From positions 496,460-560,459 of the forward strand of contig QDFQ01000002.1 in NCBI GenBank assembly GCA_003075315.1: DNA of 64,000 nt, written 5' to 3'. Every line of letters begins with the position of its first letter. The first letter of the stretch is position 1. Shown here piece by piece: positions 46,636 through 61,076 of this stretch. Below the pieces are notes generated by a model. It searched no databases. It saw nothing but the letters and a program-made list of their open reading frames with translations, and was not told the origin of the DNA. The DNA is from Arthrobacter sp. TPD3018 (GTDB lineage: Bacteria; Pseudomonadota; Alphaproteobacteria; Sphingomonadales; Sphingomonadaceae). The position numbers and the translations under genes are program-made.

Positions 46636-49600
46636 TCATTCCTCGCTCAGATCGAAGCCGTCGGGCGCGGGTTCGAGATAGACATCGCGTGGCTGGTCCT
46701 GGCCGAACAATTTGCCGTCGCGCTTTTTCTTCCACGCCTCGATGCGGCGTTCGATCGGCCGGTTGAGCGAATAGCCGAACCGGTCGAGCAGCGGGCCTTC
46801 CACATAGTCTCCGGTCCACAACACCATGCGGGCATCGGCGATCTTGGCGAGCAAGGTGCCATAGCGCCAGAAGTCGACGCGGTCGCCGGTTTCGGCGAGG
46901 TGCTGATACCAGATGCGTGACCAGCGGTTGCGATCATAGGCGAACCGCGCTGCCTTGGCGGCCCGCCCGACCATTCCGCCATGATTGTCGAACCGCGCGA
47001 TCGTCGCGCCGGCGGTCTCGCTCTCATCGGCGAAGCCAAGGATCGTCAGCGCCCGAGCGATGGCGACGGGATGGCCGGTCGCGATCTCGCGCGTCGCATA
47101 ATCTTCCAGCCAGGATTGCCGTCCGGCATGGCAGGCGGCGAGCACTTCACTTGCCAGCGCGTGGTCATTCGAACAGCGCGCGAGCCGGTCGCGACGCAAC
47201 GCCTCCATCGCGCCGGAATCCTCGCTGTGCCAGATATCCCAGGTCATCAGCGGGATCGAACCCGCCGAACGCGTGATGCGGACAAAGGCCTCGTGGCCAG
47301 CGCAACGGCGGAACAGCGCGACGGCGAGATCCGGGTCTGCGGTGGACAGCGCCCGCGCGATGCGAGAGGCGAGATTAGCGATGCGCGGCAACCGGCTGGT
47401 CGGGACATCGAGCAATTGCCTGGCAATGGCCTGAAGCGCGGCGAGGTCGGTTTCGGCGATCGCGCGCATCGCATTCGAGCCGATATCGCGCAGGATCAGC
47501 TCGGCACCGCTTTTGGTGAGCGTAGCCTCGAACGCCTGGAATCGATCCCACCCGGCCTTCTGGCGCGCGGCGAACGCCTCGTCGCTTTCGTTGATCCGGG
47601 CGAAGCGCTGGTCATCCGGCAAATCGGCGTCGTCATCCTCGAGCGAGAAGCGGGGGACGGCGTCAGCATCGGCAGTGTCACTCAACGAAACGCGCGGTGG
47701 CCGGAACGGCATCACCGCTTCGAGCACGCGCGCGGTGGCCTGACCGATCAGGCTGGCGAGCGGCGTACCGACTGCGGCCGCACCAAGCTTTTCCGCTGCC
47801 GCGCCATAGCGATCGGGGCTGATACGCGCGACGGCTTCGGCTCCGCTCAACAGGCCCCGCTTCGCCGCGGCGATCATCATCGACGAGCCATGCCAGCGTT
47901 CGTAAAAATGCTCGCGCGGGTGATAGGTCGCGGCACTCCAGCCGCTCGCCACGAAGGCGGTGAGCTGTGCGTCGTCGGGATGCTCCGCCGATATCTGGAG
48001 CGCGAGACCGCGCACTGACGCTTTGGGATGATCGGTCAACAACCGGATTTTCGCGAGTGTCTCCGGGCTGATCGGTGAGTCCGACCCGCCCACGAACGCC
48101 AGCGCCATCAGCAGCCGATGCTCCTCGCTCGAGGCAGTCCCGTGGTCGACCAGCCGATCGACCATGTCGGCGCTCGCCGGATGAAACACGCTGTCGAGCT
48201 GGACCAGCGGCGGTCCGTGTTCGGGCAGATCGATGAGCACCTGAACCTGAGCGTCGCCGTCGAGATGGGCGAAGGCGGTGACCAAAAGATATTGCGAAAC
48301 GACCCAGTCCTTGGTGTCGGCGTCCCCGACCGGCTCCTTGGGATGGGACAGCGCGGCGGCACGCGCGGCCATTGCCTCGACTGTATCCGGCTCGATCAGC
48401 ACGGTGGCACTGCCGAGCAACGGAATGCCGAGCGTCGCGATACTGCTCGGGCGCTCGAGCATGTCGCTGATCACGGCCCGGTTGATCGCGACGACGTTAT
48501 CGGGTGCGAAGCGTGCGAGACCCGGTGCGGCGTCGCCTAGGAAGTGCTCATGCTCGCCGGTCCAGCGGCTCCTGACCAGGGCCTTGGGATCGAGCGCCCC
48601 CATGCGCTCGGCGGTGTCATCGATCGTGTCGGGTCGTTCCGAGGCTGGATCGCACGGATCGGTCGCACAATAGCGCTCGACTAGCCGCCAGCTCTGAAAA
48701 TGCTCCCATTCGGGCATCAGCGCATTGGCGATGATCTCCGCACGGCTGCCATCGTCGGCATCGCCGGTGGCGCGCAGGATCGAAACCAGCGCCCATTGGC
48801 CAGTGCGCGAGGCATCGGCGGCGGTGAAGCAGGCGGCGGCCGCAAGCAGCGCCTCGCGCGTTTCGAACCAGTCGATCCGATTATGCTGGACGACGAAGGC
48901 GAAGTCCTTCCACGGCACATGATAGCCGCCGTTGATCGAGCGGGCGAACGCCCAGCACATCAGCCCGTCGGCAAAATCGAGCAGCGGCATGCCGGCCAGG
49001 ATCGCGAAGATATCCTCGCTGAGCACGGTGCCATCGACGCTGTCGTCGCGGGTCATCCGCGCAAGGATCGCGCGCTCGCACGGCATCAGGTCGGCAAGCC
49101 GGGTCGCAATCTTGGTTTCGGTCTCCGCCTTTGCGTCTGCGCGCTTCGTGGCATCGCGTTCGCCCGGCATGAGGCCATGCACAGGATTGAGCGAGTAAAT
49201 GCGCAGCCATGCATCGAGCTGCGGCGCGATGATCTCCCAAGCTGCCCTGTCGGCGCGCGCACGGCGCAGCGCATCGAGCAGCCATTCCTTGTGCTGGACA
49301 TGGGGCTCGCCGATGGCCAGCGCGAACAGCGCATCGAGCGCCGCCGCCGGAATGTTGCGGACAATGCCACAATAAGCGGGATAGCTGTCCTCATCGGCAT
49401 TTTGTTGCATCGCGTGACGCGCCAGCAAGGCGGCACCGATTGCCGAACTGACCTCGGCATCGACGCTGGCGATGAGCGCTGCGGCGAACAGGACATGGGT
49501 CACGAGGTCGAGCGCGGCAACCGGCTCGATGATTTCGGCGAGGCGCTCGGTGACTGACCGGGCGTTGCGCTCAGCCTTCTGAAGCTCGCGGATCGTCGCG

Positions 49601-51270
49601 ATGGCGAGCGCATAGACGAGGCCGTCATCGGTCAGCTGGTAGAGAGCGGTATCGCCCTCGACTCCGACAAAGAAACGCTCCTCGACCACTGGCAAGAGGT
49701 CGCGCGGCAGATCGAAGCGCGGCGCGTCTGCGAAGTCATAATGGGCGAAGATCAGCCGGTCGTCGGTGACCTGACCCTCAATCCTTTCGCGGATCAGCCG
49801 GGCGTGCTCGGCGAGCAGGGTCTTGAACTGCCAGGGTGTCTCGCCGTCGGCGGGGTCGCTGGCGTGGGTCCGGACATGTTCGAACAGCAACCGCTCGATG
49901 CTCAGCTCCTCGGCGGCGCCGATCTGCGCGGTGCCGAGAAGCTCGAGCGCTATACCGAGGATACGCGGGTTCCGCAGTGATGACCGGACCCGCTTGGCGA
50001 TTTGTGTGGGCGCGACCCCATGTGCGGCGAGCGCAGCATTGAGTTCGGCATCGGTAAATTCACCAAGCGTGACCGTACGCCGCGGTACGGTGAAACGGTC
50101 GTCGATGCGCTTGAAATAACGCGCCCGGCTTGTGACGATCACGCATCCGCCGATCGTCGCAAGATAGCCGGTCAGGCGCGACAACCATGGAGCCCAGTCG
50201 GTCCGCGCACGCTCGTTGAGCCCGTCAACCACCAGGAGCAAGCGCGGCGCGGTCGCGGGCCGCGCGCGCCATCGTGCAAGGCGCTGCGTCCAGCGATCGA
50301 GGCTCGCGATGGTCTGCACACCGCCCGATTGTTCGATCAGCTGGCGTGCGATAAGCTCCTGAGGCGCGCAGGACATTGCGGCGACCGCTTCGGCTGCCGT
50401 CAGAAAGATCAGGAACGGGGCATCCGGCAGAGCGAGCCAGGCTTGCGCGACGAGCCAGGATTTGCCGCACCCCTGGTCGCCGGTCACCGCGATGATTCCC
50501 GGGACCGGCGGCGCTGTCAGAACTGTATCGAGCTCGACACGTCGCGCTCGATCGATCGGCGCAAGAGCGTGGCTAGCCGCAGGCGCCAGCGGTTGTCCGA
50601 AACGATGTCGGGCCTCGTCTGTCCTCGCGAAGAGCCGCCCATAGTTAGCATGATTGGCGGCGCGGGCCGTTGCGAGACCGAGTAACGGATCGGCCAGCGC
50701 GTTGCTGAGGTCTGTGGCGCGCGCAGCGAAACCCGGCGCGACTGCCAGCGCCGTGAGCGCAGCCAGCAATGCGGCCCTGTCGACGCCAGCCTGACTGTGG
50801 CAGGCGATGAAATCGGCGCAGGTGTCTGGTACCATGGCGCACAGCAAGGCCAGCGGCGGCAGCGATGTGTTGGCCGGCCAGTCGAGCACCAGCAGGCTCG
50901 TCTCGACCTTGGCGAAGGCGGCGCGCAGGGTCGTGACAATCTGAGAGGACGCGCCGACGGTCGCGCCGAGGATCCAGAGATCGGGCGGATCGGCGCTGGC
51001 CAGCACCTCAGTGGCTTTGTTGTTGACCACTGATTTGGTGAGCTTCGACGTGTAGAGTTTGGCCTCGAACGCAATCGACTCCTCAGCCCCGTCACCGCGA
51101 CCATCCTGGCCATCCTGGCTTCCCGAAACGGCCAGCCGGAACGGCAAGTGCGTCACCGCGCCGAGCAGCGCCGCCATCAGGCCTTCGAAGCCATCGTCGC
51201 CGCTGTCCTTGAGCGTAAGGATCGCTGCCTTGATCTGCCCCGCAGGCGTCAGAACCTTTGATACCGCCAT
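46636..51270 (-). CDS. Nuclease-STAND NTPase with long helical C-terminus (Avs-like architecture)
   Basis: 1544 residues. Residues about 25-130 look like a PD-(D/E)xK nuclease: DGFEGLMAALLGA, Asp60 in GRGDG, Glu69-x-Lys71 in IAFEAKLYT, then DLWILGATV. A STAND/NACHT-type NTPase follows: Walker A VTGDQGCGKSWLV (264-271), Walker B LLLVVDGLNERA (344-353) and sensor VIVTSRARYF. From about 500 to the end the protein is helical, with repeat-like degenerate segments and no transmembrane helix. The order effector nuclease, STAND, repeat sensor is that of antiviral Avs proteins, which recognise a phage protein through the C-terminus and then activate the nuclease. I cannot assign it to a known Avs subtype. 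It may be independent of, or functionally linked to, the convergent DUF4238 pair. Confidence 0.75.
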   Translation of the reverse strand: MAVSKVLTPAGQIKAAILTLKDSGDDGFEGLMAALLGAVTHLPFRLAVSGSQDGQDGRGDGAEESIAFEAKLYTSKLTKSVVNNKATEVLASADPPDLWILGATVGASSQIVTTLRAAFAKVETSLLVLDWPANTSLPPLALLCAMVPDTCADFIACHSQAGVDRAALLAALTALAVAPGFAARATDLSNALADPLLGLATARAANHANYGRLFARTDEARHRFGQPLAPAASHALAPIDRARRVELDTVLTAPPVPGIIAVTGDQGCGKSWLVAQAWLALPDAPFLIFLTAAEAVAAMSCAPQELIARQLIEQSGGVQTIASLDRWTQRLARWRARPATAPRLLLVVDGLNERARTDWAPWLSRLTGYLATIGGCVIVTSRARYFKRIDDRFTVPRRTVTLGEFTDAELNAALAAHGVAPTQIAKRVRSSLRNPRILGIALELLGTAQIGAAEELSIERLLFEHVRTHASDPADGETPWQFKTLLAEHARLIRERIEGQVTDDRLIFAHYDFADAPRFDLPRDLLPVVEERFFVGVEGDTALYQLTDDGLVYALAIATIRELQKAERNARSVTERLAEIIEPVAALDLVTHVLFAAALIASVDAEVSSAIGAALLARHAMQQNADEDSYPAYCGIVRNIPAAALDALFALAIGEPHVQHKEWLLDALRRARADRAAWEIIAPQLDAWLRIYSLNPVHGLMPGERDATKRADAKAETETKIATRLADLMPCERAILARMTRDDSVDGTVLSEDIFAILAGMPLLDFADGLMCWAFARSINGGYHVPWKDFAFVVQHNRIDWFETREALLAAAACFTAADASRTGQWALVSILRATGDADDGSRAEIIANALMPEWEHFQSWRLVERYCATDPCDPASERPDTIDDTAERMGALDPKALVRSRWTGEHEHFLGDAAPGLARFAPDNVVAINRAVISDMLERPSSIATLGIPLLGSATVLIEPDTVEAMAARAAALSHPKEPVGDADTKDWVVSQYLLVTAFAHLDGDAQVQVLIDLPEHGPPLVQLDSVFHPASADMVDRLVDHGTASSEEHRLLMALAFVGGSDSPISPETLAKIRLLTDHPKASVRGLALQISAEHPDDAQLTAFVASGWSAATYHPREHFYERWHGSSMMIAAAKRGLLSGAEAVARISPDRYGAAAEKLGAAAVGTPLASLIGQATARVLEAVMPFRPPRVSLSDTADADAVPRFSLEDDDADLPDDQRFARINESDEAFAARQKAGWDRFQAFEATLTKSGAELILRDIGSNAMRAIAETDLAALQAIARQLLDVPTSRLPRIANLASRIARALSTADPDLAVALFRRCAGHEAFVRITRSAGSIPLMTWDIWHSEDSGAMEALRRDRLARCSNDHALASEVLAACHAGRQSWLEDYATREIATGHPVAIARALTILGFADESETAGATIARFDNHGGMVGRAAKAARFAYDRNRWSRIWYQHLAETGDRVDFWRYGTLLAKIADARMVLWTGDYVEGPLLDRFGYSLNRPIERRIEAWKKKRDGKLFGQDQPRDVYLEPAPDGFDLSEE

Positions 51271-51680: not shown

Positions 51681-52703
51681 ATGTCATCGGGCGACGACGA
51701 CCAGACAATCTCGCGTCAACCGGAATTCACCTTCAGGGCGGAGCTGACGCCGGAGCAGATCGCGTTCTTCCGCGAGTGGGACGCGGCGGTGCCCACCCTC
51801 TATTTCATGGATATCTGCGTAGCGAACATCGCTAAGGTGGCTGGTCCGACGCCCCCCACGGATCCCCGGAAGGCAGCGTGGCTCGACGAGCTGCGGCGCC
51901 TCGATCGGCCTCAGCATGCCTTCTCGTACTTGCTCGCGCTCATGGAGAAGGGGAGTGACCCGCGCGCGCACCTGCCGGACGAGGCTCTCGCCGACCAAAT
52001 CAGCCAAGACCTCGCATCACTAAGGACCTTCTTCAGCCAGGCGCGAGTCTATGAGAGCAACGCGATGGTCGCCCTGTACCTACGCGAACTACGCGGGAAT
52101 CCCGTCGAGCTCGCCCGCCCTCGTTACCTGGCCTTTCTGAGAGCCGCCAACGAAGAGTTCGAGCTGCACCGTCCATTGGCGCGCCGGCTGCGGCTCGCCC
52201 AGGCGACGAAGATACTCGAGCGGGCGGATGCGCTCGGCGTTTCCAGACAACATCTGACCGTCGCCGTGGTGTTGGCCTGCCTCTACGGCAATCCGCACGC
52301 CATCAACGTCATGAAATTCAAGCCAGATCCGCAGCGTTTCGCGGCAGAGAACGCGCTGGCCGACGTGATGATGATCCGACGTTTCATGGAGCAGAAGCTC
52401 GAGCTTGAGAAGATGGCAGCCGAGGGGCGTTGCCCTTATCTACGAGTCAAGCTCCTCACCGACGACGAGGGGGTGCGGCAGCTGGCGCGATACTTCGAGC
52501 CCTCCTCCCTGCGTTCGCGTTCGGATGGCGGCGGGCGCGAGACGCGCCTCGTCACAAACGTGCAGTTCTTGAAATTGCTCACCGACCTAGCCGTCGATCG
52601 TCAGAAGCGATCAGCTATGTCCCAACACACGGATGATCACGAGCGCGACGAGTTCGACGCGCTGTGCACCATGATCCTCGGTGGCACGGAGAGCGGCGCA
52701 TAG
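51681..52703 (+). CDS. PIN-like protein of unknown function, first gene of a three-gene operon
   Basis: 340 residues. The segment VPTLYFMDICVANIAKVAG (about 37-55) has the form of the first beta-strand of PIN-like nucleases, hydrophobic strand then Asp44. Further acids occur in ALADVMMIRRFMEQKLELEK and near VTNVQFLKLLTDLAVDRQ, where PIN domains place the second half of the active site. The identification is tentative; no standard PIN family is obvious. The remainder is helical and charged. No signal peptide or membrane segment. The next gene starts 43 bp downstream and the third overlaps the second, so the three form an operon, divergent from the STAND gene. Confidence 0.6.
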   Translation: MSSGDDDQTISRQPEFTFRAELTPEQIAFFREWDAAVPTLYFMDICVANIAKVAGPTPPTDPRKAAWLDELRRLDRPQHAFSYLLALMEKGSDPRAHLPDEALADQISQDLASLRTFFSQARVYESNAMVALYLRELRGNPVELARPRYLAFLRAANEEFELHRPLARRLRLAQATKILERADALGVSRQHLTVAVVLACLYGNPHAINVMKFKPDPQRFAAENALADVMMIRRFMEQKLELEKMAAEGRCPYLRVKLLTDDEGVRQLARYFEPSSLRSRSDGGGRETRLVTNVQFLKLLTDLAVDRQKRSAMSQHTDDHERDEFDALCTMILGGTESGA

Positions 52704-52746
52704 CGTCGCTGGCGCATGGCTACCCCTCATTGGTATGAGGTCCGTC

Positions 52747-53514
52747 ATGCCTGACCTCCGATCACCAAGAATTCTCACCTACCTTGCCTATCTCGAGGAG
52801 ATGGCGACGATGTACCCGGACACCGCGGTCGAGGCGCCGGGGCTGGGCGTGCTGCGACCGCGTCCGCCTCTTCTCGCAGGCAAGTTCGTGCGGGCCCGCT
52901 TCAGCGGCATCCGCGCGTCCTTGTTCGACGAGATGAAGGAAATCGTTGGCCTCTCGCCTGACGGTATCCGCTCGGCCGACCAGCGCAGGCAGCGCCGTGC
53001 CGCACTCCGGGACGCCTTCAAGCGCTTCCCCGTGCCGGTCATTGACCTGTTCTGGTCGGGTGACGATCCCGCGGCGCGAAGCCGGCGCGAACGGACCATG
53101 CGCCTCCATCACTGGTTCCAGCTCGACCTTTCAGCCGGCGACGTCCTCGATGCCCGGGAACCGGTGTTTATCGGAGAGCCCGAAGTCGGGCGTCCGCCGG
53201 AGCCCGAGTTCGAATCTGGTCGACTCCTTGGCCTCAGAGCCTTGTCACAGCACGAGGAAGAACCGCTGCGCGACATCTTCTCGCTGGCGCACGTTCCGGA
53301 CGCTAATCTCGACGAAGGGCCTGAGGGCCCCACGGGCGCGCCGCCTCCGGACGACGACGATGACGGTCCCGATTCGACCGGCGTCGCGACCGTCACGTCC
53401 GAGGAGCAGGAAGAGCAGCTTGCCCAGTCGGAGCTTGAACGAGTCCGGGCGACCTATTCCGTTCGCCCCGCCACGCAGCGCCGCGAGCAGCAACATGTGA
53501 CAATAAGCCGGTGA
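52747..53514 (+). CDS. Unknown protein with acidic C-terminal tail, second gene of the operon
   Basis: 255 residues from the ATG at 52747, which has GAGG about 7 bp upstream; a longer GTG frame from 52681 overlaps the upstream gene. The N-terminal about 170 residues are ordered-looking (ILTYLAYLEEMATMYPDTAV, FKRFPVPVIDLFWSGDDP, MRLHHWFQLDLSAGDVLDAR). They are followed by a low-complexity acidic linker GAPPPDDDDDGPD and a Glu/Gln-rich helix EEQEEQLAQSELERVRATY. I do not recognise a family. The tail could bind a basic partner or nucleic-acid-binding protein. It overlaps the metallo-beta-lactamase gene by 4 bp (GTGA). Confidence 0.6.
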   Translation: MPDLRSPRILTYLAYLEEMATMYPDTAVEAPGLGVLRPRPPLLAGKFVRARFSGIRASLFDEMKEIVGLSPDGIRSADQRRQRRAALRDAFKRFPVPVIDLFWSGDDPAARSRRERTMRLHHWFQLDLSAGDVLDAREPVFIGEPEVGRPPEPEFESGRLLGLRALSQHEEEPLRDIFSLAHVPDANLDEGPEGPTGAPPPDDDDDGPDSTGVATVTSEEQEEQLAQSELERVRATYSVRPATQRREQQHVTISR

Positions 53515-54401
53515 GCGGGAAGCTCGAGCGCGCGCGCATCGGCGGCGCCGATGTCGCCCACATCAAGGCACCGATGGCCGTTGCTAGGGCGCGGGCGATC
53601 AGCGGCGCCCGAATCTACGATGTTGGCCAGGGTGACGCGATAGCGATCCTTAACGAGGCCGGCGGGACCATCCTGCAACTCGACTATGGCGGCAGGCAGG
53701 ACAACCCCTTCGAGGGCAAAAGCCGAGTGGAAGTAGATCGGATGTTACCCGTGTCTACCGACGCGCTCGTCATGGTGACCCACTGGGACGAGGACCATTG
53801 GTCGACCGGCCCGAAAGGCGAGGCCGCAAAAGCCGTGGACTGGCTGGTGCCCCGGCAGGTGACGTCTCCACGCGCGGTGCGGTTCGCGGCCGACCTCGCG
53901 AATGTGCGGTGCATCCCCGAGCCGCTGGTTGGGAAGGTCTTCGAATACCGCGCGCAGAACGGTGACGCCATTCTCTGGCAGAAGATCGCAAAGTCCTCGC
54001 CATCACCGTCCGTCCACGAGAACTGCAACCGGACAGGCGTGGCGGTCGCACTCCTACGTCGGTCGGAAGGGGCTGGTCAGGTCATTCTTCTCCCCGGCGA
54101 TGCGCCGTTCGACGAGGTCCCGCTCTTCGACGCCCTTCGCACCTCCGGAGCAACGCTCACCGGGCTTGTCGCCTACCATCACGGTTCGAAATACCCTCTG
54201 AGGAACGGCACACGATCCCTGTTGCGGGACTGGCCAGTGACGCCCGGCGGACCTTGCGACGTCGTCTTCTCCTACGGCGCGGGGAACAGCTACGGCCATC
54301 CGCACCTGGACCGATACGACACGCTTAAAACACGGCGGGAGGTTACCACGCCAGCATTGCGGACTGCTAAGGCTGCATACCACGATATCCTCTTCCGTTG
54401 A
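53511..54401 (+). CDS. ComEC/Rec2-like metallo-beta-lactamase-fold hydrolase
   Basis: 296 residues, GTG start overlapping the upstream stop. IYDVGQGDAIAIL is the ComEC-type opening (DVGQGDA). The metal motif is VTHWDEDHWSTG (His91, Asp93, Asp95, His96). ILLPGDAPFDEVP, VAYHHGSKY and YGAGNSYGHPH supply the remaining ligand candidates. No membrane helices, so only the soluble hydrolase part of ComEC is represented. Free-standing proteins of this type occur in bacterial conflict operons, where they may cleave nucleic acid or nucleotides. Together with the PIN-like protein and the acidic-tailed protein it makes a compact, tightly coupled operon. Confidence 0.8.
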   Translation: MSGKLERARIGGADVAHIKAPMAVARARAISGARIYDVGQGDAIAILNEAGGTILQLDYGGRQDNPFEGKSRVEVDRMLPVSTDALVMVTHWDEDHWSTGPKGEAAKAVDWLVPRQVTSPRAVRFAADLANVRCIPEPLVGKVFEYRAQNGDAILWQKIAKSSPSPSVHENCNRTGVAVALLRRSEGAGQVILLPGDAPFDEVPLFDALRTSGATLTGLVAYHHGSKYPLRNGTRSLLRDWPVTPGGPCDVVFSYGAGNSYGHPHLDRYDTLKTRREVTTPALRTAKAAYHDILFR

Positions 54402-56110: not shown

Positions 56111-57388
56111 CTACAGCGGCTCGAACACCTCGCCGCCTGTCTCGCGGATCTGTAGGCAATCGTCGCAGAGCCGTAGCGTGTCTACGCCGGCCGGCGGCCG
56201 CTGATCCACAGGAAGGCGATAGTCGTCGGCCGGGTCATCGCCGCAAATTGAGCATACTTCCAGGCTTCCCGCGGATTCTACGACGTGGCGCGTTATCCCT
56301 GCCTGCGTTGGCGACCAGTGCGCCAAGGCAGAAAACCATTCTGGTGTATGTGGCACCAGGGGGTCGGGCTCGAACGCTGGCAGGTCACCCGCCGCCTCGA
56401 GCCACCGCTGCGCAACATCGACACGCGTGGCATGCAACGTCGCCAAATGCTGGTGCAGGTCGGCCATGATCCGAAAATACCGGCGCGGAAACTGCCGCGC
56501 ACAGCTATCATAGATGCCGCGGTTGCGGATGTAGCGGTTGGGTTCCTGCGTCTCGTTCCGTAGAACATCCCAGCAATAATCGGCAATGCCGCCTTGCGGT
56601 TCGCCATTCATCAGGCGGAGGTCATATTGCCAGGGATTCTTCTCCTGCTCGATCCGCCAAACCTTGAGATAGCCAGACCGTTCGATTGCGGCGCAGATCG
56701 CTGCGTCATGCTCGGGGTGGCGCGCCGCCAGATCGGCAACGTCTTGGATATCCTCTACCTCGGGTGCGATCGCACGGACACCGGCCAGAAAGGCATTGGT
56801 CGTGTTGCGCATGATCTCCGGAAGGTCAGGGATCGTCTCGAAGAAATCCATCTCCTCTTCCGATACCGATACGGTCGCGTTCGGGACGGGTTCAAGCAGC
56901 GCACTACGCTTCAGCCTGCCGGGCGTGCAGGAGTCGGGTTTTGCCACGAGCTTGATGCCGGCGGAGGCGAAAGCCTGCGCGACCAAGCGTGAACAGAACT
57001 GTCTGCGGCCTGCGCTGATCTCGGCCGGCACCAGTATCGCCAGCACCTGCGGCACCGAATATCGGGTGCCGATCTTGGCGCGCAGGTCGAGGATGATCGC
57101 CTGCAGCTGGTCGGCCGTCGGCGACCTCTTCAATCGCAGGACATGGACCGGTCGGCCGGCCTCGAACCAAACGCGCTGGGCGTTGCTCGCCTGCACGCCG
57201 GCAAAGGTCGCGTCGATCACCGATCGATCTTCGACATAGACCATCGCGTGGGAAATATCGCTCCAGGTCATTAGCCGGATCGAGGCGCTGATGGTCGACG
57301 ATTGGGTCACCAGGATGATGTCGCCTGGGCGAAGCGCTTCTTCGTTGAGCCGGACGTAGTCCGTGTTGGGTTTCGGGCTACTCTGCAT
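56111..57388 (-). CDS. Permuted papain-like (NlpC/P60 superfamily, YiiX type) peptidase/amidase with C-terminal zinc ribbon
   Basis: 425 residues from the ATG at 57388 (AAGAGAA upstream); the upstream frame extension is not conserved. LRPGDIILVTQSSTISASIR then ISHAMVYVEDRSVIDATFAG supplies catalytic His47; GTRYSVPQVLAI and RRQFCSRLVAQAFASAGI supply Cys132. The His-before-Cys order is that of the circularly permuted NlpC/P60 enzymes, which hydrolyse amide or acyl bonds. A helical middle region of unknown type follows, and a C-terminal CxxC...CxxC zinc ribbon (VCSICGDDPADDY, LRLCDDCLQI). There is no signal peptide, so it acts in the cytoplasm. It lies between the broken and the intact SIR2 gene and could be an effector of a conflict system. 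Confidence 0.75.
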   Translation of the reverse strand: MQSSPKPNTDYVRLNEEALRPGDIILVTQSSTISASIRLMTWSDISHAMVYVEDRSVIDATFAGVQASNAQRVWFEAGRPVHVLRLKRSPTADQLQAIILDLRAKIGTRYSVPQVLAILVPAEISAGRRQFCSRLVAQAFASAGIKLVAKPDSCTPGRLKRSALLEPVPNATVSVSEEEMDFFETIPDLPEIMRNTTNAFLAGVRAIAPEVEDIQDVADLAARHPEHDAAICAAIERSGYLKVWRIEQEKNPWQYDLRLMNGEPQGGIADYCWDVLRNETQEPNRYIRNRGIYDSCARQFPRRYFRIMADLHQHLATLHATRVDVAQRWLEAAGDLPAFEPDPLVPHTPEWFSALAHWSPTQAGITRHVVESAGSLEVCSICGDDPADDYRLPVDQRPPAGVDTLRLCDDCLQIRETGGEVFEPL

Positions 57389-58005
57389 GTTTCTCTTATT
57401 CTGTTTGGGCAGCACGGTGCCGCTCAGATTCCCTTCTACAGCACACCTAACCCACGGCGCATTATTGGCGAGCACGCCGAGTCACTTTTCTTGCGGCATC
57501 GCATTCGATTGCCCGCAGGAATGACTATGGCCGATCTTCGCGAACAGACGAGGGGAACGGCTGCTTTTGGGATCGACACGGCAAGCATCGAACGTCCGCC
57601 ATTAAGGCGCACTGCTGTCGGACCGTTCATTCGAATGGGAATGGCGAGTTCCGGCAGGAGCGGCCGTTCGTTCGTAGGTTAGGCAACATCGTAGTTTAGG
57701 TCGCCTCCGGCTGGAAGGTCGTGGGACTTTGCTGCCGTCCCTTGGCTGGCCGCCTAACGGCAGATTTCGTTGAGAGCCGACATGGTCTTCCTTCAGCGCA
57801 GGCTGCGGTCCGCAGAGGTTGATCGACTGCCTGAGATAAGCCCCGTTACTACAAAGAAGCGGCAACGACGGATCCGGCAGAGCGTCACAACCGCTCGGTT
57901 TTGACACCAAGATGGTCGGCAGCTTTGGGTCTATCTCGCTCCAATCCGGTCGGAAATGACACCCTTCTCTGACAATCACGATAGACGTGCGACATCAAGC
58001 GTGGG
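57389..58005. other. 617-bp gap with repeat copy B2 and SIR2-HerA promoter region
   Basis: Apart from the repeat at 57555-57670 no gene is supported. The stretch is divergent between the peptidase and SIR2-HerA-KTSC operon, so both promoters lie here; I could not recognise their elements. Confidence 0.45.
57555..57670. repeat. Dispersed intergenic repeat, copy B2
   Basis: It shares ordered blocks with copy B1 (54645-54764), including GCTTTTGGGATCG near the left end and GAATGGCGAG with GGAGCGGCCGTTCG at the right. The right end also resembles the CGGCCGCTCGTTC end of copies A1 and A2, so A and B may be parts of one family. Confidence 0.55.
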
Positions 58006-59271
58006 ATGTTGCGCTGGCAGCTCGAAGCAAGGATGCGGGAGCTAACGTCGGGGGAGCGTAAGTTGACCGTCAGTGTTCACAATCCTGATCAATATATGGC
58101 GGCTTTACGGACGATCATCGCGCAGGGCCGTAAGCGGATCGGACTGTTGGTTGGCGCGGGAGCTTCTGCCGGCATGGCCAAGTCTGACGGTACTTATCCG
58201 CTTATCCCGGCGGTTGCAGGCCTCACTGATCAGGTCCTCACAACGCTTGCACCGACCTATCAGCAACAGATCGACGGCCTGAAAACCGAACTCGCGCAGC
58301 ACGACATCGAGACGATCCTTTCTAGGATTCGCTCGCTGAGCAAAGTCATCGGATCGGCGAAAGTCCATGGCCTCGATGGCCCCGGCTTTGCTACTTTCGG
58401 CGAAGCAATCTGCTCCGAGATCGGTAAGATCGTGGACGTCCGATTGCCGGATACCGGATCAGCATATGCCAATCTCGTGAACTGGATCACGGGCACAATG
58501 CGTGACTATCCAGTCGAGATTTTCACCACGAACTACGACCTTCTGTTCGAAGAAGCGTTTGAGTCCGTGCGAGCGCCGTATTTCGATGGCTTCACCGGCG
58601 GTCGCGAACCGTTCTTCGACCCCGTGTCAGTCTCACGCAGCGACCTTCCCTCGCGATGGACGCGGCTTTGGAAGCTCCATGGCTCGCTCGGCTGGCGTGC
58701 CAGCTCGAAGGGGGAAGTGATTCGAACGGGCCAAAGCTCGGCAAGTCACCTCGTCTTCCCTGAACATCTGAAATACGATCAGACGCAGAAGGCCCCCTAC
58801 GCCGCGTTGCTTGATCGTCTTCGTGCGTTCTTGCTGACCCCCGACACGCTGTTGGTCTCTATCGGCTTCTCCTTTGCCGACGCACATATTGCGGCTCGGC
58901 TGGATGAAGCGCTCGCAGCGAATCCATCCTCCAGCGTCTTCGCGTTTCAATACAAGGTCCTCGAGGAAGAGGGGCCAGCGTGCGATCTTGCGCGCCGCCT
59001 GCCAAACTTCAGCGTGTATGCGCGTGACCAAGCCAAAGTGAACGGCATTCGCGGCGCATGGAAGGCACCGGCCGGACTTCCGAACAGGGATTGGGGTCCG
59101 ATAAGATCGACCTATCTCGACAAGGACGGAAACTTCACCCTCGGAGCGATCGAACCCTTTGCCCGATTCTTCGCGGCGTCGCGCTCGGTTCAAGCATTTC
59201 CCACTCCACCGGCGCTGGCAACAACAGCGGTAACGCCACCGCTAGTTGCTGCCACCGCGTCGGTGGTCTGA
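58006..59271 (+). CDS. SIR2-like NAD-binding effector of a SIR2-HerA defence pair
   Basis: 421 residues. SIR2 signatures: IGLLVGAGASAGMAKSDG (about 45-62), EIFTTNYDLLFEEAFE (171-186; the TTNYD motif binds NAD ribose), His225 in LWKLHGSLGW and LVSIGFSFADAHIAARLDEA. An NADase rather than deacetylase role is usual for this class. Its stop overlaps the start of the HerA-type ATPase (TGATG). SIR2-HerA is an established anti-phage arrangement in which the HerA hexamer and SIR2 form a large complex that is activated on infection and depletes NAD or cuts DNA. Start codon choice (58006 or Met10 at 58033) is uncertain as neither has a good ribosome site. The tail after about 390 is Ala/Thr/Pro-rich. 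Confidence 0.9.
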   Translation: MLRWQLEARMRELTSGERKLTVSVHNPDQYMAALRTIIAQGRKRIGLLVGAGASAGMAKSDGTYPLIPAVAGLTDQVLTTLAPTYQQQIDGLKTELAQHDIETILSRIRSLSKVIGSAKVHGLDGPGFATFGEAICSEIGKIVDVRLPDTGSAYANLVNWITGTMRDYPVEIFTTNYDLLFEEAFESVRAPYFDGFTGGREPFFDPVSVSRSDLPSRWTRLWKLHGSLGWRASSKGEVIRTGQSSASHLVFPEHLKYDQTQKAPYAALLDRLRAFLLTPDTLLVSIGFSFADAHIAARLDEALAANPSSSVFAFQYKVLEEEGPACDLARRLPNFSVYARDQAKVNGIRGAWKAPAGLPNRDWGPIRSTYLDKDGNFTLGAIEPFARFFAASRSVQAFPTPPALATTAVTPPLVAATASVV

Positions 59272-61076
59272 TGAACGCTCCGACCCTTCTCGGCCACGTC
59301 GGCTCAGTCGCGGGTGCGACCATAAGCGTGCGTCAATTCGAGGGCGTGGCCTCAGGGATCGCGATCATCGGAGGACGTAGCTACCGGGTCGGCCAGGTCG
59401 GTAGCTTCGTGCGGATACCTCAAGGCTATCATGATCTTTACGCGATCATATCGGAGGTCGGGGCAAGTGCGACACCAGCAACGTTCACTGATGCGCTTGA
59501 CCGCGGCGAACGATGGCTGACCGTTCAACTCGTCGGGGAGATTGTCGAGGCGTCGTTCGAGCGGGGCATCAGCCAATATCCAAACGTGAACGATGAGGTC
59601 CATCTTGTCACTGAGGAGGATCTGGCCAAGATCTACGGCTCCGAGTTTGCCGGACAGGTGGTGGTAGGGCGACTTGCCAACGCCGAGAGCATTCCAGTCC
59701 GACTGGACCTCGACAAGCTGGTCACGCGTCACAGCGCAGTGCTTGGCTCGACCGGGTCGGGCAAATCAACGACCGTCGCCAGCTTGTTGCGATCGATCTC
59801 GGCGCCAGGTGGAGCGGGCTTTCCGAGCGCGCGCATCCTCCTGCTTGATATACACGGTGAATATGCCCGCGCGCTTGGCGACAACGCTGAAATTTTTCGG
59901 ATCACGCCTGGAGACGATGAAAAGCAACTGGTCATTCCGTATTGGGCACTGCGGCCCACCGAAATCCTTAACTTTCTGTGCGGGAAGATGGATGATCGTG
60001 CAACGACCGCTATCCTCGACAAGATATTTGCGGCCAAGAGCGCTATGGCGCAGGCAGACAACATGCCAGGCGTCGACCTGAATTCAATGACTGTTGATAG
60101 CCCGATCCCGTACAGCTTACGAAACTTGTGGCTCGAGCTGATCGATCCAGAGGTCAAAACTTGGCTCGATCAGGCAAAGACGCAGCCGGCGATCGTGCTT
60201 CCCGGTGACGCGGCTACGCTTCGCCTGCCGACCTACCAGCCGCACACAACAACGAATACGGCACCCTATCAGAATAACATCGGTGTGCTCGGCATTCGCA
60301 AGCAACTCGATCGCATGCGGTCACGTATGCTCGATCGTCAGTTCGAGTTCTTACTGAAACCCGGCGACTGGGAGCCTGACCTGACCGGCCATGTGGCGAA
60401 TGACCTTCCGGCCCTTCTCGAAAGCTGGATCGGCCACGAGAAGGCGATAACAGTGCTCGATCTGTCGGGCATCCCCAGTTCCGTTCTCTTGGATTTAATC
60501 AGCGCGATTCTGTCAATTATTTATGAGGCACTCTTCTGGGGTCGTGAACGCGACGAGGGCGGCCGAAGGCGGCCACAACTAGTGGTAATGGAAGAAGCGC
60601 ACCGGTATCTTGGTCGGGAAGCCGACAATCCTGCGCGCGAGATGGTTCAGCGAATCGCAAAAGAGGGGCGCAAGTTCGGAATCGGTGCAATGATCGTCAG
60701 CCAGCGCCCTTCAGAAATAGACGACACCATTCTCTCCCAATGTGGGACCTTCATCGCGTTGCGCCTCACGAACTCGACTGACCGCAGCAAGGTACAAGCC
60801 GCTTTGCCCGATAACCTGAGCGGTATAGCCGACAGCCTCTCGGTTTTAAGGACCGGAGAAGCCATCATAACTGGCGAGGCTGCGCGGCTCCCAGTGCGTT
60901 GCCGCGTTACCCTGCCACCGAAAGACCGCCGCCCAGACAGCGAGGATCCACTCGTCGCAAACAGCTGGAAGCGTGCTCGCGGCCCTGAAGATTACGATCG
61001 GCTTGTTGCAGCATGGCGTGCACAGGATCCGAAGTGGAAGCCGCCAGAGGCGGGCGAGAATGAGGGAGGGAAATGA
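59271..61076 (+). CDS. herA: HerA/FtsK-type hexameric ATPase of the SIR2-HerA pair
   Basis: 601 residues. The N-terminal HAS-barrel (about 1-150; LGHVGSVAGATISVRQF, VGQVGSFVRIPQG) is typical of HerA. Walker A is SAVLGSTGSGKSTTVASLL (about 159-167) and RILLLDIHGEYARAL follows. Walker B is QLVVMEEAHRYLGREADN, and the sensor and arginine-finger region is GIGAMIVSQRPSEIDDTILSQ. All motifs needed for ATP hydrolysis are intact. The ATG lies in the SIR2 stop and its own TGA overlaps the KTSC gene start (ATGA). The three genes are therefore one translational unit. The product should be a DNA-associated or complex-forming hexamer acting with SIR2. Confidence 0.93.
   Translation: MNAPTLLGHVGSVAGATISVRQFEGVASGIAIIGGRSYRVGQVGSFVRIPQGYHDLYAIISEVGASATPATFTDALDRGERWLTVQLVGEIVEASFERGISQYPNVNDEVHLVTEEDLAKIYGSEFAGQVVVGRLANAESIPVRLDLDKLVTRHSAVLGSTGSGKSTTVASLLRSISAPGGAGFPSARILLLDIHGEYARALGDNAEIFRITPGDDEKQLVIPYWALRPTEILNFLCGKMDDRATTAILDKIFAAKSAMAQADNMPGVDLNSMTVDSPIPYSLRNLWLELIDPEVKTWLDQAKTQPAIVLPGDAATLRLPTYQPHTTTNTAPYQNNIGVLGIRKQLDRMRSRMLDRQFEFLLKPGDWEPDLTGHVANDLPALLESWIGHEKAITVLDLSGIPSSVLLDLISAILSIIYEALFWGRERDEGGRRRPQLVVMEEAHRYLGREADNPAREMVQRIAKEGRKFGIGAMIVSQRPSEIDDTILSQCGTFIALRLTNSTDRSKVQAALPDNLSGIADSLSVLRTGEAIITGEAARLPVRCRVTLPPKDRRPDSEDPLVANSWKRARGPEDYDRLVAAWRAQDPKWKPPEAGENEGGK

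Follow-up and report, generated by a model that had tools for sequence, protein, structure and literature searches.

A PIN-like protein and a candidate split NTD-MBL pair adjoin in a defence-rich region of an alphaproteobacterial genome

Results

Gene structure and surroundings of the locus

The window analysed here is a stretch of 64,000 nucleotides from Arthrobacter sp. TPD3018 (contig QDFQ01000002.1, positions 496,460 to 560,459), and the coordinates of its genes are positions within this stretch. The following features are considered.

51681-52703, plus strand: P0001, 340 aa; PIN-like protein, probably an independent single-gene module
52747-53514, plus strand: P0002, 255 aa, ATG start; candidate stand-alone N-terminal domain (NTD) of NTD-MBL fusions
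53511-54401, plus strand: P0003, 296 aa, GTG start; ComEC-type metallo-beta-lactamase (MBL) domain
46636-51270, divergent from these three: STAND/NACHT gene
56111-57475, minus strand: gene for a permuted papain-like hydrolase (YaeF/YiiX type), located after the MBL unit and before SIR2-HerA
58006-61076: SIR2-HerA, 3.6 kb after P0003

A preliminary description of this DNA had placed three tightly packed genes here, and their presence and coordinates, the 43-bp gap behind P0001 and the 4-bp GTGA overlap between the P0002 stop and the P0003 start all proved exact. The short gap and the common strand would allow co-transcription of the three. Codon statistics, with seven other genes of the window as training set, were positive for the stated frame of each gene and negative for both remaining forward frames; for P0001 and for P0002 an antisense frame scored positive as well, at slightly lower values (0.20 vs 0.28 and 0.19 vs 0.23, respectively). 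The same statistics favoured ATG 52747 as the start of P0002, and the negative score of the stretch upstream of it makes the alternative start, GTG 52681, unlikely. We read the GAGG located six bases upstream of this ATG as a putative ribosome-binding site.

The divergent STAND gene and the defence-rich character of the region had also been reported before, and both were found again, with STAND, SIR2 and HerA genes present. An open frame downstream of P0003 (54722-55762) has a weak ThsA-type match in PADLOC (E 0.067) and contains what we read as a SIR2-like glycine motif, IGNGINIHG. The papain-like hydrolase ends, in our reading, in a cysteine-rich C-terminal tail. No member of a trypsin or caspase family was detected among the nine window proteins scanned.

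Neither P0001 nor P0002 had a significant family match in Pfam, PADLOC or NCBIfam. The best matches of P0003 in these libraries were HEM4 (E 0.1) and 6A-MBL (E 0.15), and the latter, at 11.1 bits, missed the NF058524 cut-off of 220 that stands for the 6A-MBL system.

P0001 and its relatives

A PIN domain has four conserved acidic residues in order, with TxD before the last. P0001 contains such a series, D44 (at the position given in the preliminary description), E89, D228 and T260-x-D262. Residues D44, E89, D93, D228 and D262, and likewise the T260-x-D262 motif, are invariant in all nine aligned members of the family. In order and context (TLYFMDIC, KLLTDD) the acidic residues resemble a PIN domain that carries a long insertion, the matching of single residues to PIN positions being our reading. 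On that reading, proteins of the PIN_8/PIN_12 kind share with P0001 the four acidic positions and the long insertion that separates the second from the third, but P0001 gave no significant match to a PIN profile. Comparison of the P0001 profile with 20 VapC-type and three PIN_12-type sequences gave E values of 0.08 or weaker, with motifs out of register; in one of four comparisons the reversed P0001 scored higher. The earlier label of a PIN-like protein agrees with four fitting positions, invariant in 9/9 members, and finds no backing in profile comparison.

Relatives of P0001 are few. Of five plasmid records found by tblastn, one had 24% identity and the other four had 43-44%; two peptide patterns derived from the profile, searched in 84,980 genomes, added four further loci, the ninth (L020) being a contig of 3.8 kb. 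Genome contigs gave no relative when P0001 was the single query, scans of viral contigs and of phage records gave no match, and a search of the class (289 genomes) yielded no copy but that of the window. The company of these genes differs from place to place. SIR2 genes stand beside the relatives on Methylorubrum and Acinetobacter plasmids, a transposase and a recombinase beside that on a Serratia plasmid, and genes which we read as type I restriction genes beside that of Pseudomonas juntendi; the loci of Sulfurospirillum and Pseudoalteromonas have no evident partner gene, and two Rhizobium plasmids have a caspase-hypothetical-MBL block in common. Since the neighbours vary between loci, the Rhizobium pair excepted, P0001 seems to be a solitary mobile gene.

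The Rhizobium block (L013:6391-9873, and L014) consists of a caspase-family gene, a gene for an unknown protein of 423 aa and an MBL gene whose catalytic motifs span 288 aa; it lies directly upstream of the P0001 relative and resembles a caspase-nuclease (canu) locus. The relative on the second of these plasmids (L014:10001-11019) is annotated as two overlapping genes and for this reason is probably a broken copy; the related copy of L013 is intact.

P0003 and proteins with an N-terminal domain fused to the MBL

The ComEC-type MBL domain is marked by DVGQGD, HxDxDH, GD, HHG and HP in compact spacing. P0003 carries the whole set intact (DVGQGD, HWDEDH, PGD, HHG, HP) and is compact: from motif I to HP it measures 226 aa, against 184-210 aa in 11 of 13 ComEC rows (two not measurable, two identical) and 288 aa in the canu-like MBL of L013. 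Its assignment as a ComEC-type MBL, with H91 and D93 where they had been placed, is therefore sound, and so is the statement that it has no membrane part, its 296 aa leaving 36 residues before motif I.

A first search of 398 genomes with P0003 gave 11 weak matches besides its own, namely eight long frames read as ComEC and three other loci (L004, L005 and L008). These three and the plasmid matches are proteins of about 400-500 aa, in which an NTD of about 140-250 aa precedes the MBL. One of them (L004:1273-2697, minus strand) has an in-frame stop between NTD and MBL, which may be a natural split or the mark of a broken gene; a SIR2-like gene follows it. Profile A2, built from five fused proteins (L005, L008 and three plasmid proteins) with P0003 left out, matched P0003 at E 4.2e-25; among the long frames read as ComEC the best value was 2.2e-14. 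It also matched the genomes of L005 and L008, both of which are in the profile, and of L004; in all, 22 of the 398 genomes matched at E 1e-8. An eight-member profile, run against 274 genomes at E 1e-15, gave four matches: that of L008, a new member (L057) and two frames read as ComEC.

With further fused members obtained from plasmids and viral contigs, 12 distinct NTD-MBL proteins were collected, with a span from motif I to HP of 192-223 aa.

Plasmids (five): L018, L024, L025, L026, L055
IMG/VR contigs (four): L054, L061 (near-twin L062), L063, L064
Genomes (three): L005, L008, L057

Genes read as phage structural genes surround L061/L062 and L063; the contig of L064 bears an integrase-like gene, and the neighbours of L054 look chromosomal. 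On the Paraburkholderia plasmid (L055:1564-6050), a SIR2 gene and an ATP-binding gene, HerA-like in our reading, lie 288 bp upstream of the fused gene. For L018 (5419-6711, Methylorubrum DM4) the MBL is annotated from 5827; an open frame with the NTD begins upstream of this point, so that the gene probably starts earlier than annotated, and later work used the frame 5419/5431-6711.

A close relative of P0003 is P0004, encoded on the viral contig L065, which is 46% identical to it and also lacks a fused NTD; the contig breaks off where the MBL gene begins. A NACHT/STAND gene follows P0004 (L065:1537-4869) and is not similar to the window's STAND gene by BLASTP. A scan of viral contigs for the P0003/P0004 subfamily gave this contig alone, P0003 matched nothing among phage records but three short entries from Listeria phages, at 27% identity, and a nucleotide search of plasmids with the P0002-P0003 pair found no match.

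In a maximum-likelihood tree P0003 and P0004 form a clade (support 100/99), and a branch with support of 100/99 has the 12 ComEC rows (two identical) on one side and P0003 with the fused family on the other. L064 joins the ComEC side weakly (77/95), L064, L061 and L055 are long branches, and the tree gives no resolution to the placement of P0003 within the fused group. Judged by sequence, the MBL of P0003 is nearer to the fused family than to ComEC, and P0003 groups with the former. It resembles the MBL domain of ComEC/Rec2 in catalytic motifs, in domain span and in its best match among solved structures, the ComEC MBL domain 9ic4, which MBL profile A4 matches at E 1.5e-6 (A4, like A3, contains the L018 row in a wrong frame). 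It differs in being a separate protein without a fused membrane channel domain, in the branch that sets the ComEC rows apart and in having relatives with an extra NTD.

Existing libraries describe the fused proteins sparsely. Pfam gave Lactamase_B alone, below the cut-off, in two of five members; among eight members, ComEC_Rec2 matched three (best E 5.6e-6), Avs1a one (E 0.035) and the PADLOC model LmuA one (E 9e-5), and PHROGs gave nothing under E 0.05. In view of the LmuA match, some of the NTD-MBL proteins may already be assigned to a known system.

P0002 as a candidate for the missing N-terminal domain

The gene for P0002 lies immediately before that for P0003, in the position that the NTD occupies in the fused proteins, and P0002 aligns colinearly with the fused NTD. 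The joint alignment puts its segments FSGIRASLFDEM, FKRFPVPVIDL, HHWFQLDL and LRDIFSLAHVPDANLDE on conserved stretches of the fused NTDs; this alignment includes P0002 and is therefore no test of its homology. Its acidic low-complexity tail (residues 186-240, with 15 D+E and 3 K+R among 55 residues) aligns with the linker, which is also acidic or glycine-rich in L005, L018 and L063.

Direct searches with P0002 found nothing in plasmids at E 1, in viral contigs or in the L065 record. Among 296 genomes of the order it matched itself and two further loci (L029 and L030, E 0.0023 and 0.007), which on reading we judged to be chance matches. No second P0002 was found.

Profile comparisons were ranked against null open reading frames, many of which are not real genes; family members had been dropped from these sets, 13 named frames for the set of 281, P0002's own frame among them, and five for the set of 166. 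With a profile of 13 NTD sequences, local hhalign placed P0002 second of 282 (one of 281 nulls and none of 300 shuffled sequences scoring as high) and global hhalign first of 282, over 173 columns (no null and one of 300 shuffles as high). The hhalign probabilities were 2.4% and 2.1%, with E values of 0.019 and 0.0085 that apply to a single comparison. HMMER gave P0002 2.4 bits against the same profile and the third or fourth rank of 282 (2-3 of 281 nulls, 2 of 400 shuffles as high), and when single members were left out the rank ranged from 1st to 74th, with 0 to 73 of the 281 nulls as high. As a positive control, 12 of the 13 true NTD members beat every null in HMMER, the exception being L064. 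An earlier nine-sequence profile gave no significance, as 12 of 166 nulls and 23 of 300 shuffles scored as high as P0002, in a null set from which neither P0003, the highest scorer in it, nor, probably, the longer frame of P0002 had been removed.

The preliminary description knew of no family that the middle protein matches. This stands as far as curated libraries are concerned; P0002 may well correspond, however, to the NTD that is fused to MBLs elsewhere. We regard its homology to that domain as slightly more probable than not, mainly from gene position, and the results are suggestive of P0002 and P0003 being a split version of a fused NTD-MBL protein.

Discussion

The preliminary description had suggested that the three genes could form one system, an idea to be given up if other genomes showed no conserved neighbourhood. 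The neighbourhoods of the P0001 and MBL-family loci lead us to reject this: no P0002 or P0003 match accompanies P0001 at any of its nine other loci, and no P0001 match occurs at any of 15 MBL-family loci, the flanks being short for several of these loci. A true three-gene abortive-infection system, in which a PIN RNase, a linker protein (P0002) and an MBL DNase would be active jointly, could draw on the single strand, the tight packing and the position amid STAND, SIR2 and HerA genes. These 0/9 and 0/15 counts, and the confinement of P0001 to the window's own genome among the 289 of the class, make such a system quite unlikely.

The explanation that we prefer, with a probability of roughly 0.55, is that two unrelated mobile units adjoin in a defence island. 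P0001 would be the first, a single-gene PIN-like protein acting alone, probably as an effector of the RNase type. The second would be P0002 with P0003, an NTD-MBL protein, elsewhere fused, that is divided in two here. The MBL of P0003 would depend on metal for its nuclease action, most likely against DNA, and its active site would be compact, with no long loops over it; the NTD, or P0002 as its separate equivalent, would keep this nuclease inactive or direct it, the acidic tail of P0002 possibly mimicking DNA. An infection cue might release the nuclease, so that DNA of the phage, or of both phage and host, would be cut. To our knowledge, no activity has been reported for any member of the family; it is location that points to a defence role for the NTD-MBL proteins and for P0001.

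How such a nuclease might be held in check can be compared with known systems. HamM, Avs1a and CanC, as described in PMC12799240, are MBL pro-nucleases blocked by two insertions, which a trypsin-like or caspase partner cuts. They are soluble ComEC-like MBLs in defence loci, as P0003 is, and the presence of the papain-like hydrolase gene on the other strand and the single Avs1a and LmuA matches among eight fused relatives would agree with P0003 being a gated pro-nuclease of this kind, activated by proteolysis. P0003, however, has no extra length between its catalytic motifs for the two insertions that form the gate in PMC12799240 (226 vs 288 aa, a judgement by length), and its scanned neighbours include neither trypsin nor caspase. 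Without the extra length of the caspase-linked MBL, protease loop gating is unlikely for P0003, and the gated reading as a whole we hold to be very improbable. By length there is no room for this type of gate, so that a regulator, if there is any, should lie elsewhere, the NTD being the obvious candidate.

Two further readings concern the partner and the family. P0002 might be an acidic antitoxin without homology to the fused NTD, and P0003 its toxin; this overlaps partly with the preferred explanation and fits the small size of P0002, its acidic tail and the place of its gene just before P0003 with 4 bp shared, as well as the weak statistics for P0002 homology. The colinearity of P0002 with the fused NTD, in the expected position, speaks against it, and we consider such a toxin-antitoxin-like pair doubtful. 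The anti-Pycsar enzyme of phages has an MBL fold. A still smaller chance is given to the NTD-MBL family being an anti-defence or housekeeping phosphodiesterase of phages and plasmids, as would suit the members on IMG/VR contigs L061-L064 and the existence of phage anti-CBASS and anti-Pycsar nucleases, the subject of PMC9117128; the motifs and profile point instead to ComEC, and the window copy lies in a host region with defence genes.

The kind of enzyme that P0003 represents is already known. What makes it a variant is the NTD, whether fused or split off, along with the short motif spacing and the occurrence of members on plasmids and prophage-like contigs; neither the libraries nor the open-access literature searched gave a name or a description for the NTD-MBL family. 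Tentatively, and with less confidence than in the two-unit explanation, we suggest that these might be mobile soluble ComEC-like nucleases with their own NTD as sensor and lock, split into two proteins in this lineage, and that they might form a minimal, protease-free anti-phage unit of plasmids and prophages. Recent work (PMC12799240) established MBL nucleases as effectors of defence that loops lock and proteases free. A compact MBL whose N-terminal partner is a protein of its own would add a second means of restraining this enzyme, and with the two divided, each can be studied without the other. P0001, for its part, stands for a mobile family that is small and uncharacterised and for which mutation offers a clear test.
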